This document shows, in pieces, positions 29,114 through 35,779 of a stretch of DNA of 41,387 nt. A program made the translations under genes and the position numbers. The notes under the pieces are model-generated. The model did not search any database, was not told where the DNA came from, and worked only from the letters and a program-made list of their open reading frames with translations. The DNA is from a virus: positions 1 through 41,387 of IMG/VR virus record IMGVR_UViG_3300025652_000160; one strand, written 5' to 3'. Every line of letters starts with the position of its first letter. Within the stretch, counting starts at the first letter, position 1.

Positions 29114-29190
29114 TGGTGCGTATGACAGGACTCGAACCTGCGACAGTCTGATTGGAAATCAGGTGATCATACCAACTGATCTACATACGC
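29114..29190 (-). tRNA. tRNA-Gly (anticodon TCC)
   Basis: A complete cloverleaf on the minus strand with encoded CCA: acceptor GCGTATG/CATACGC (7 bp), D stem GATC/GATC with an AGTTGGTAT loop, anticodon stem CCTGA/TCAGA (4 pairs plus a C-A mismatch at 27-43), loop TTTCCAA with anticodon TCC, a 5-nt variable loop, T stem GCAGG/CCTGT (one G-U) and T-loop TTCGAGT. The anticodon reads GGA. The discriminator base is A, unlike the U usual in bacterial tRNA-Gly. It lies 3' of a long structured non-coding stretch. Confidence 0.93.
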
Positions 29191-29191
29191 T

Positions 29192-29838
29192 TGATAGCTA
29201 GGCCACCAACCCGAGCGATTATGGTGATAGTGCTAAGGCTGGAGCTGTAATCCCAGCATGCGCAGCAGTCCTGAAATCAGGGATACGCTTTTGATCTGCT
29301 CTTGTCATTAGCCGGTCAGCTTAATCCAGCATTCTTAACACTGAGAAACGCCATAATCATGACGCTTGACAGTGGCCACTCGAAAATACTCGCCGCGAAT
29401 GGCTTCGGCGTCTTACGCGCCAGTGCATTCAATACCGCACCGCCAGGAAGGTATTAAATACACTGAAGATTGCTGCAGCTACGGAATCGAACCGCCTATA
29501 CATGTGCGCTGCAAGTTGGGGTACGCGCGCTCAAGGGTTAATTTATCTAGAATTTCACCCCCTCACTATCCCCTACCATCCCTTTTTGGTTTTACCGCAA
29601 CAATCTTCAGTGCCCCCTCATATACCGGAAGGGGTCGGTTATCTCAGTTGTATTCGCAATGCTATCGCCTTCAAAACCTCAAGAATTGCGCGCATAAAAC
29701 ATTGGCATATGATTCATTCTCTAATCTTATAGATTTCGGCTCTATAAGGCATTGCGACTGTTTTACCGACTGAAGCCATAATATAAAGGCTAGCCATAAA
29801 ATAATAATATCCAATAAGTCCCCCTCCAATCCCTCTGT
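29192..29838 (-). ncRNA. Large structured non-coding RNA candidate next to tRNA-Gly
   Basis: About 650 bases between ninB and tRNA-Gly hold no plausible minus-strand gene but many helices: a 16-bp long-range stem (29597-29612 with 29461-29476); CGCAATGC/GCATTGCG (29749-29756 with 29655-29662) stacked on the hairpin 29726-29748; hairpin 29428-29458 (9 bp); CACTG/CAGTG (29339-29343 with 29370-29374) enclosing hairpin 29349-29364; hairpin 29238-29257; and a tRNA-like T-loop hairpin (29482-29494). A promoter-like block lies at its 5' end. Size, complexity and tRNA linkage recall GOLLD and ROOL RNAs of phages; I cannot confirm membership. Plus-strand open frames here lack coding character. Confidence 0.5.
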
Positions 29839-34267: not shown

Positions 34268-34626
34268 GTTTCTCTCCAAAAAATTGACTCTGCGTACTCA
34301 AGAGGCACATCAAACAATTTAGCCACTTCAGCCGCTGCCCTAATTCCAAACCATCCGGAATGAGTAAATTCCATAAAAAACTCCCTTACCCCGCCAGTGT
34401 TGAGACTTGGCCCATCACAATAATCAAGCGATTGATCCATTAGCTTGAAATTATCAATAACATTTGCGCAGCTTAAGCAATGCTTAAAACTGTCTGGCTC
34501 ATCCCATACACCACTGGTGTATCGATAACTATCCCCAACCTTAATTTCGGAGAAGCAACCTTCGCACCCATGTATTTTCCTAGCCCTCCTAGTAACGCTA
34601 GTAGAGCATTTTGGCATTTCGTTCAC
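34264..34626 (-). CDS. Zinc-finger phage protein
   Basis: A 120-residue protein with GTG start inside GTGA and GGGG upstream. The motif RRARKIHGCEGCFSEIKVGDSYRYTSGVWDEPDSFKHCLSCANV (two CxxC pairs, about residues 21-53) is a zinc ribbon often found in small phage proteins beside replication genes. The C-terminal half is helical. It may contact DNA or replication partners; no experimental analogue recalled. Confidence 0.68.
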   Translation of the reverse strand: MNEMPKCSTSVTRRARKIHGCEGCFSEIKVGDSYRYTSGVWDEPDSFKHCLSCANVIDNFKLMDQSLDYCDGPSLNTGGVREFFMEFTHSGWFGIRAAAEVAKLFDVPLEYAESIFWRET

Positions 34627-35276
34627 GTATCACCCCACAACTTTGCTATTTCAATTTGACCCTCTGGCGTTACTAAGCATTGGGTAAACTCGTGGCCATT
34701 TTTAGAATCAGCCACAACATTAAACCATGTTTCATACCCCGCCTTTGGCGCGTCTATACGAATCATCTTGCAGCCCTGCTCCCGCAAGAATCGATTAAGC
34801 TTTATTGCAGTAGTGCCGATCTCTTTAGCTACAATGGTAGTGCTCACATCAGATCTCCGATTAGCAAGCATTTCATAAACTTGCACCTTTGGCTTTACCT
34901 CCTCCAATTGAGATAGCGCCTTTTGCTCTGCCTCTTTCGCGTCAGCCCAAGCTCTAGCAGCCTCTACTGGATTTGAGAAATCAGGGAGCATAAGATTGGC
35001 CCCGCCTTCTAGCTCTTGCCAGCGGTCAACTAGACGGCCTGTAAATTCAGGTGATAACTGCGCAACAATCACATAGCTGTCACGCTTCCCTATCAAGTAA
35101 TGGAATGGCTTTTTCCCGTTAGCGGACTTTTCCCCAAACACCGATGGTGGCTGGGATATAGCTAATGATGCATAAAGTCGCTCGATAGTTCTTTTAACAC
35201 TGTCATGCCTAGAGCCGACAAGGTCTGCTATTTCAACGCTAGTCATTTTTTGATCATTATTTAATTCTGGCAACAT
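34623..35276 (-). CDS. rha: Rha-family regulatory protein with KilAC domain (antirepressor-like)
   Basis: A 217-residue protein. Residues about 8-85 match the Rha domain (MTSVEIADLVGSRHDSVKRTIERL, then HYLIGKRDSYVIVAQLSPEFTGRLVDRWQELE). Residues about 105-215 match the KilAC/ANT antirepressor domain (KVQVYEMLANRRSDVSTTIVAKEIGTTAIKLNRFLREQGC). Such fusions are antirepressors or growth regulators in temperate phages. The leader carries a strong pseudoknotted structure ending at the ribosome site AGAGGA, so translation is probably controlled. Confidence 0.85.
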   Translation of the reverse strand: MLPELNNDQKMTSVEIADLVGSRHDSVKRTIERLYASLAISQPPSVFGEKSANGKKPFHYLIGKRDSYVIVAQLSPEFTGRLVDRWQELEGGANLMLPDFSNPVEAARAWADAKEAEQKALSQLEEVKPKVQVYEMLANRRSDVSTTIVAKEIGTTAIKLNRFLREQGCKMIRIDAPKAGYETWFNVVADSKNGHEFTQCLVTPEGQIEIAKLWGDT

Positions 35277-35287
35277 AAAAGAATCCT

Positions 35288-35383
35288 CTAAGTCCGCCCC
35301 TTGGTCAGAATGCCGCGAAAGGCAAAACCAAGGTGGTTAGAATTACGGCAACAAAGGGCGGATTTAGAAAATTCTTTGTTACC
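35288..35383 (-). promoter_or_regulatory. Pseudoknotted RNA leader of the rha gene
   Basis: Read on the minus strand: GGTAACAAAG (35374-35383) pairs with CTTTGTTGCC (35347-35356), 10 bp; CTAAATCCGCCC (35356-35367), from the loop of that stem, pairs with GGGCGGACTTAG (35288-35299), 12 bp; and between them is the hairpin CTTGGT/ACCAAG (35327-35332 with 35300-35305) closed by GCC/GGC. This is an H-type pseudoknot with an embedded hairpin. The 3' strand touches the Shine-Dalgarno AGAGGA of rha, 12 bases before its ATG. It could be a translational operator or riboswitch-like element. Confidence 0.65.
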
Positions 35384-35426
35384 TTTCATTTTTTACAGTT
35401 CTGACGCTGCTTGTGCATGGCACCCA

Positions 35427-35603
35427 TCAACTATAGTCAAGCTCTCCACTAATGCCAAGTTTTTTTTCAAACTTCATGTCATCAATTTTATTGCGAGTCT
35501 CGCGAAGCTGCTTTATGGCCTTTTCCTCAGCTGGCGTTCTAGTCGTTACCGGCTTCGGCCCTGGCCCGATAACATAGCCCTTAAATCTATCGCGCTTACT
35601 CAT
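35427..35603 (-). CDS. Small basic protein, unknown
   Basis: A 58-residue protein; the start at 35603 (MSKRDRFKGYVIGPGPKPVTTR) overlaps the upstream stop (ATGA) and has GGGGG upstream, so a longer reading to 35678 is not needed. A basic N-terminus is followed by a charged coiled coil (EEKAIKQLRETRNKIDDMKFEKKL). It is the last gene before the rha leader. Confidence 0.62.
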   Translation of the reverse strand: MSKRDRFKGYVIGPGPKPVTTRTPAEEKAIKQLRETRNKIDDMKFEKKLGISGELDYS

Positions 35604-35779
35604 AAAGCCCCCTGATTGATCATTTCTGGATAACGAATAAGAATATAATTTAGCTCGGCCTGGTATCCGCCCTCGCATATCACAACGCCTGACGCGTTCA
35701 TCACTCTACGATCAGAGCCAAATCGACTTACTACGCGACAATTTAAACGCTTCCATAATTTAGCCAGTCTTTTATGCAT
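35600..35779 (-). CDS. Small basic protein, unknown
   Basis: A 59-residue ORF (MHKRLAKLWKRLNCRVVSRF...) that overlaps its neighbours at both ends by a few bases. It is strongly basic at the N-terminus with a Cys pair (C14, C35) and a helical tail (ELNYILIRYPEMINQ). The spacing and composition fit a real gene of the tight middle operon. Function unknown. Confidence 0.6.
   Translation of the reverse strand: MHKRLAKLWKRLNCRVVSRFGSDRRVMNASGVVICEGGYQAELNYILIRYPEMINQGAL

Follow-up and report, generated by a model that had tools for sequence, protein, structure and literature searches.

An RNA leader with covarying helices in front of a phage antirepressor gene: a probable C4-like translational switch

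On the minus strand of a 41,387-base viral contig (the window), a leader lies between a small open reading frame (35427-35678) and the antirepressor gene rha. Does the transcript of this stretch fold into a conserved structure that could control rha translation, and, if so, what kind of control would it be? The initial annotation had placed two long interlocking helices and an embedded hairpin at 35288-35383, considered three perfect helices unlikely by chance, and compared the arrangement with riboswitches and autoregulatory operators. Leader positions are given below on the minus (rha-sense) strand.

The element is present but is larger than the annotated interval. It spans about 35274-35410 (a leader of 137 nt) and is accompanied by a sigma-70-like promoter; the interval first proposed includes neither the 5′ hairpin HP5 (35410-35395) nor, at 35287-35278, the outer 3′ arm that holds the ribosome site. 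Two 26-nt arms, 85% complementary and separated by 48 nt, form an inverted repeat at its centre. The best arm reached 28 nt, against a maximum of 22 among 200 dinucleotide shuffles, and arms of at least 26 nt occurred in none of the shuffles. The fold of the rha-sense RNA had a z-score of -7.2, and none of 200 shuffles was equally stable. The structure is therefore far beyond chance, as had been supposed, even if its helices are imperfect.

Read from 5′ to 3′, the leader consists of a promoter-like site, HP5 with PK2a in its loop, the segment GAAAGGUAACAA with I3a and H1a, the arm P1a, H1b/H4a, a loop, I3b, H4b, PK2b, and finally P1b with the Shine-Dalgarno sequence, followed by the ATG (Table 1). 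A promoter-like -10 was found in 11/11 aligned homologs, 6-75 nt upstream of the element. In the window, the promoter call is a consensus match only, and the shuffled region likewise yields about one such site. In a scan run without phage-specific late promoters, the sole conspicuous promoter lay upstream of the whole element.

Table 1. Features of the rha leader in the window; counts marked "hand register" come from an alignment register that is biased towards the structure
Feature	Position	Strand	Description	Evidence
Sigma-70-like promoter	35430..35458	(-)	TTGGCA-17-TATAGT, just upstream of element	10/12 consensus matches
HP5	35395..35410	(-)	5′ hairpin GCAG/CUGU, 8-nt loop with a1-like strand	4/4 pairs in 11/11 homologs; two-sided change at all 4 (hand register)
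PK2a (a1-like)	35399..35405	(-)	GUCAGAA, pairs with 35304-35310	76/77 cells paired (hand register); two-sided change
I3a (b1-like)	35380..35387	(-)	GAAAGGUA, overlaps H1a, pairs with 35317-35324	84/87 cells paired; two-sided change 5/8 (hand register)
H1a	35374..35383	(-)	5′ strand of 10-bp helix, GGUAACAAAG	8-bp core complementary in 12/12 homologs (hand register); weak on automatic alignments
P1a	35352..35377	(-)	5′ arm of long stem	Inverted repeat; two-sided change
H1b	35347..35356	(-)	3′ strand of 10-bp helix, CUUUGUUGCC	Inverted complementarity, hand register
H4a	35345..35349	(-)	GCCGU, 5′ strand of inner hairpin, pairs with 35312-35316	98% cells paired; one pair with two-sided change
I3b (b′-like)	35317..35324	(-)	UGCCUUUC, directly 5′ of H4b	Hand register
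H4b	35312..35316	(-)	GCGGC, 3′ strand of inner hairpin	Covariation
PK2b (a′-like)	35304..35310	(-)	UUCUGAC, adjoins 3′ arm of stem P1	Covariation; zero gap to P1b in 8/8 homologs measured
P1b	35278..35303	(-)	3′ arm of long stem, contains ribosome site	Inverted repeat; two-sided change
Shine-Dalgarno of rha	35284..35289	(-)	AGAGGA, inside P1b, 7 nt before ATG	Sequence; paired in predicted fold
rha	34623..35276	(-)	Antirepressor, 217 aa, Phage_pRha N-terminus and KilAC C-terminus	Pfam PF09669, PF03374 above cut-off; PHROG anti-repressor Ant

Both long helices of the initial annotation are present and do interlock. The first, H1, has 10 bp including one G-U. The second (35368-35357 / 35299-35288, CUAAAUCCGCCC/GGGCGGACUUAG) extends over 12 positions, one of which is an A-C mismatch when read on the rha-sense strand; the helices therefore cannot be called three perfect ones. 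This second helix is only the inner part of a longer stem, P1, the outer part of which pairs the Shine-Dalgarno sequence. The embedded hairpin, CCUUGGU/ACCAAGG (35333-35327 / 35305-35299), did not survive the comparison with relatives: it overlaps the 3′ arm of stem P1, and its full 7 bp are found only in the five mutually closest elements (the window, L151, L173, L177 and L189). A 7-bp pseudoknot, PK2, had been missed, and the leader strands can form either H1 or, alternatively, I3 and H4.

Twelve homologs were collected: eleven that share one alignment, counting the window's own, and a simpler variant. L151 came from a pattern scan of viral contigs, L008, L156 and L169 from a Rha protein search, L173, L188 and L189 and later L326, L335 and L336 from DNA patterns, and L177 from a search of the genome of L169. 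A covariance model built from 5 sequences recovered L008 (E=4e-8 in 557 kb), L189 (E=9e-21) and L188 (E=9e-14); a second model, from 8 sequences, recovered L169 (E=3e-7) as well as L326, L335 and L336. L169 and L177 are two different versions of the element in a single bacterial MAG (G006); the first precedes rha, the second an HNH+AP2 gene. This was the only MAG with a clear copy among the 369, 390 and 398 prokaryote genomes searched. Short matches were seen in the prokaryote genomes G826 and G719, and we found no near relatives in named phages or plasmids.

All 12 homologs stand directly before the ATG of an antirepressor, in which KilAC is joined to a Rha or AntA N-terminus, or of an HNH endonuclease. 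The antirepressor is found in eight (the window, L151, L156, L008, L188, L335, L336 and L169) and the endonuclease in four (L173, L177, L189 and L326). The gene behind L169 was assigned by its tblastn similarity to the window Rha (51%), its translation from 843 being without a Pfam match. The HNH gene of L173 lies between ninB-like and ninG genes, while those of L177 and L189 follow a KilAC or rha gene. Between the window and L151 the element is 96% identical (98% in the scan that found it), against 25-62% in the flanking stretches measured, and the identity stops at the start codon; the KilAC gene of L151 has an N-terminal domain unrelated to that of the window. Across the window gene, L151 and L156 (AntA N-terminus), the N-terminal domains (Rha, undefined, AntA) are swapped behind the same leader, and the KilAC C-terminus is conserved. 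L335, L336 and L326 also have GC-rich inverted repeats of the GCGCC...GGCGC type after the promoter, at 10-60 nt before the element; two of them, L335 and L336, carry UAGUUGCC or UAGUUACC in the repeat loop, and these sequences resemble H1b.

Compensatory substitutions among relatives, which the initial annotation had proposed as a check, are present in stem P1 and in PK2. We aligned 11 elements with the second model, which had been fitted to stem P1 and H4 and not to PK2. Over stem P1, PK2 and H4 together, 96.5% of the cells were paired and 22 of the 36 pairs showed two-sided change (17/24 in stem P1, 4/7 in PK2), although these cells count sequences and not events, L008, L335 and L336 having one stem P1 sequence in common. 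The covariation score was 0.633; shuffling lowered it to 0.274, and sliding the partners to 0.124 or less. A MAFFT alignment of eight elements, fitted to no structure, gave the same picture. In the hand register, biased as it is, all cells of HP5 (44/44) and H1 (94/94) were paired along with nearly all those of PK2 and I3, and no whole-strand permutation did as well. On the automatic alignments, the covariation of H1 was no higher than in shuffles, because H1 hardly varies or is misaligned there, so H1 is less well supported than stem P1 and PK2. Conserved letters comprise GGU/GGC immediately 5′ of stem P1 and, in the loop, CCGUAA and UCGCGGYAU; the elements found by pattern necessarily share the pattern letters CCGTA, CGGYAT and CCAAGG.

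Judged by these comparisons, the interlocking structure is real and exists at the RNA level, on the minus (rha-sense) strand. The aligned homologs demonstrate a conserved RNA made of HP5, stem P1 with the Shine-Dalgarno sequence, PK2, and strands for either H1 or I3/H4. Stem P1 measures 22-26 bp across the homologs, and in all of them it pairs the Shine-Dalgarno region directly before the ATG. The core of the initial annotation, a conserved interlocking RNA structure before rha with the capacity to control its translation, is thus borne out by compensatory changes in relatives.

Several other identities were considered and set aside. The element is not a MITE or repeat, being single-copy in the window record, and it has no Rfam match that would make it a known RNA family or metabolite riboswitch. 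A 33-aa open reading frame runs through it (MKGNKEFSKSALCCRNSNHLGFAFRGILTKGRT), in frame in L151 and L173, frame-shifted in L177 and without its ATG in L156 and L188; coding therefore does not explain the conservation. On inspection, the defining features of integron attC sites and retrons are lacking. An Acinetobacter HNH match (H40) was short and at the wrong end of the gene, and L171 was a chance pattern match. Elsewhere in the window, a 16-nt inverted repeat (29461-29612, 94%, 120 nt between arms) lies close to a tRNA gene (29117-29190).

How might such a leader work? Calculated stabilities are about -28 to -36 kcal/mol for stem P1 by itself and about -6 to -9 kcal/mol for H1, so at equilibrium stem P1 is expected to prevail. 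We followed the growing transcript by partition-function folding without pseudoknots. In the window, H1 came near a probability of 1.0 once H1b was made, PK2 rose to 0.95 when PK2b emerged, and stem P1 and H4 took over once the 3′ arm of stem P1 had emerged by about 18 nt. L151 and L177 behaved as the window did; in L173 and L189, H1 led and I3 competed briefly; H1 was mixed in L188; and in L156 and L008, I3 replaced H1 before stem P1 formed. During transcription, then, H1 might form first and PK2 next, so that the ribosome site would be free on emergence. H1 encloses P1a in its loop, where simple geometry would permit only the inner part of stem P1 and leave the ribosome site open. The far more stable stem P1 would form afterwards, displace H1 and hide the ribosome site, and translation of the antirepressor would be limited to a time window set by this refolding. 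On these calculations, stem P1 would represent the off state and the H1/PK2 intermediates the on state.

Control of antirepressors by C4 RNA is classical, and the leader invites comparison with it. In phage P1 the annotated order is the promoter P1c4, a1 (TTGACAG), b1, C4, a2, b2 over the icd ribosome site, icd and ant; ant1 carries a KilAC domain, as the window rha does. The folded C4 RNA has a long outer stem, within it a hairpin capped by UUCG and another with b′ in its loop, and a′ (CUGUCAA) directly against the 3′ arm. C4 is cut by RNase P to give an RNA that represses the antirepressor in trans; in the leader, the conserved GGU 5′ of stem P1 would be a candidate site for such a cut. The likeness to C4/a1b1 (RF01695, RF03163) begins with the layout, since here, too, a promoter, a1, b1 and a long-stem RNA all lie upstream of a KilAC antirepressor. 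It extends to the a′-like PK2b abutting the 3′ arm of the long outer stem (no gap in 8/8 homologs, as in phage P1), to an inner hairpin with b′ (here H4, whose 3′ strand is immediately preceded by I3b), and to upstream a1/b1 segments complementary to a′/b′ (here PK2 and I3, segments of 7 and 8 nt). L008 even has GUGACAG/CUGUCAC at the places equivalent to a1/a′ of phage P1, and in both systems a′/a1 is the variable part. The correspondence is close: PK2a to a1, I3a to b1, H4 with I3b to the b′ hairpin, PK2b to a′, and stem P1 to the outer stem.

There are also clear differences. The UUCG-loop hairpin inside the C4 stem is absent from the leader alignments, the a2/b2 targets and the intervening icd are missing, and P1b and the ATG close the leader; a full a1-b1 site was found nowhere else in the window. 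The b1-like strand abuts the stem here and lies about 67 nt away in phage P1. The ribosome site of the regulated gene is inside the stem, an extra helix (H1) is present, and the element also precedes HNH endonuclease genes. The Rfam models C4 (RF01695) and c4-a1b1 (RF03163) gave no match in the elements of the window, L177, L169, L156, L008 and L188 at E up to 5-10, nor anywhere in nine records searched at E up to 10, although the C4 model does detect C4 in phage P1. Conversely, our first leader model gave no match to phage P1 C4. As the two sets of models miss each other's RNAs, we limit the claim to working like C4; a common origin is possible.

The a′ loop of C4 is variable and sets specificity, and a 4-nt difference separates P1 from P7 (PMC5320573). 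Between the window and L173, each PK2 strand differs at 3/7 positions, against 3 of about 42 in the loop between H1b and PK2b, which suggests selection on specificity and hence an RNA acting between molecules. By analogy with C4, the element is probably also an RNA-based immunity determinant in trans: a C4-like RNA of a resident prophage, carrying b′ and a′, would bind the a1/b1-like strands (the HP5 loop and the segment after it) in the leader of an incoming phage, prevent H1 and PK2, and thereby keep the antirepressor silent. Immunity specificity would then lie in the covarying PK2 strands, as it lies in the a′ loop between P1 and P7. We infer both the on state and the action in trans from the layout and from pseudoknot-blind folding calculations. 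Group 1 C4-like sRNAs of Acinetobacter baumannii likewise have a C4-type stem whose a′ loop varies, preceded by a stem-loop; unlike the present element, they are processed sRNAs, match the Rfam C4 motif and are not described as antirepressor leaders (PMC5320573).

Taken together, we consider it probable, with room for doubt, that the rha leader is related to the a1b1-C4 module of phage P1 as a divergent family member or else resembles it in function, and works as a C4-like translational switch, probably with a C4-like RNA acting in trans. Besides the differences from C4 and the weaker support for H1, two points speak against this reading. Action in trans gives no obvious reason for copies before HNH endonucleases, and in the modelled nascent folds of L156 and L008, I3 is favoured over H1. 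The reading has to be weighed against one in which stem P1 simply silences read-through mRNA in cis, the pseudoknot tunes folding and no antisense acts in trans. Leaders that sequester the ribosome site are well known in phages, among them leaders of homing endonuclease genes (PMC3014915). Those of T4 e, soc, 49 and I-TevI and of Aeh1 mobE are of this kind: a long-range hairpin pairs the Shine-Dalgarno sequence ahead of a phage gene, which in some cases is an HNH or homing endonuclease gene. In the predicted fold, the Shine-Dalgarno sequence of rha lies within a stable helix, as in these leaders, and the pairing just before the ATG holds in all homologs. HNH/homing endonuclease genes of T4-like phages are controlled in this way (PMC3014915), and four of our homologs precede HNH genes. 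In L023 (1410-1514), a 23-bp stem of unrelated sequence similarly pairs the ribosome site of a different rha up to the ATG (19 bits with the first model, a weak hit). However, the T4-type leaders are described as hairpins, bypassed by late promoters in T4, whereas the window leader adds a 5′ kissing-type hairpin, a covarying pseudoknot and alternative helices. In a simple sequestering hairpin, covariation of the 5′ hairpin loop and of the PK2, I3 and H1 strands would be unnecessary, as would the a1/b1-C4-like order. We regard purely cis-acting sequestration as somewhat unlikely.

A leader that senses a ligand or a protein, as a riboswitch or through Rha autoregulation, is improbable. A pseudoknotted RNA that covers a ribosome site and has a conserved loop (CCGUAA, UCGCGGYAU) would suit it, but this loop is mostly complementary to other parts of the leader, and neither a riboswitch nor any other Rfam family matched. 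Rha, AntA-type and HNH genes all follow the same element, so there is no common gene product or pathway to sense. Of the two mechanisms that the initial annotation had in mind, a metabolite riboswitch also fits poorly with variable parts that are complementary RNA strands changing together, and autoregulation by Rha with an element that precedes unrelated HNH endonuclease genes. We give still less credit, and very little, to a DNA-level element, such as an inverted-repeat target for recombination or homing or an operator, that allows genes to be exchanged behind it. Different genes do stand behind the same element, and the identity of the window and L151 ends at the start codon. Nevertheless, stem P1 on the rha-sense strand has 27 G-U against 10 A-C cells (several of the latter at one position), a bias expected if this strand is the functional RNA; moreover, the ribosome site is always in the 3′ arm, and pseudoknot strands outside the inverted repeat covary.

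Other rha genes may be under different RNA control. In L153, L154, L004, L003 and L155, 40-160 nt upstream of rha, an upstream hairpin and a terminator-like one before the gene have complementary loops (GAAUCAG/CUGAUUC, GAUCAAG/CUUGAUC, and in L155 GGAUACAAGC/GCUUGUAUCC), which looks like another RNA-controlled design. At L041 (2768-2888), a rha gene is preceded, at a distance of about 100 nt, by the Rfam Betaproteobacteria-1 RNA (RF02932, 57 bits); antirepressor control may be the function of this RNA too.

To our knowledge, RNA-based phage immunity is known in detail for few systems only, for example C4 of P1/P7. In the open-access literature we found no description of this RNA family, of a C4-like stem fused with a ribosome site, or of such an element shared by antirepressor and HNH genes. 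Tentatively, and with more doubt than confidence, we propose that these leaders are RNA immunity switches of a new family: the C4-like RNA would be fused with the ribosome site it controls, pseudoknots in cis would open it, a prophage copy would close it in trans, PK2 would define immunity groups, and the module would be common to antirepressors and HNH endonucleases. If true, a covarying, self-contained leader with a variable complementary loop would be a second, compact design of RNA immunity. It would account for the common control of antirepressors with different DNA-binding domains and of mobile endonucleases, and its specificity should track seven nucleotides.
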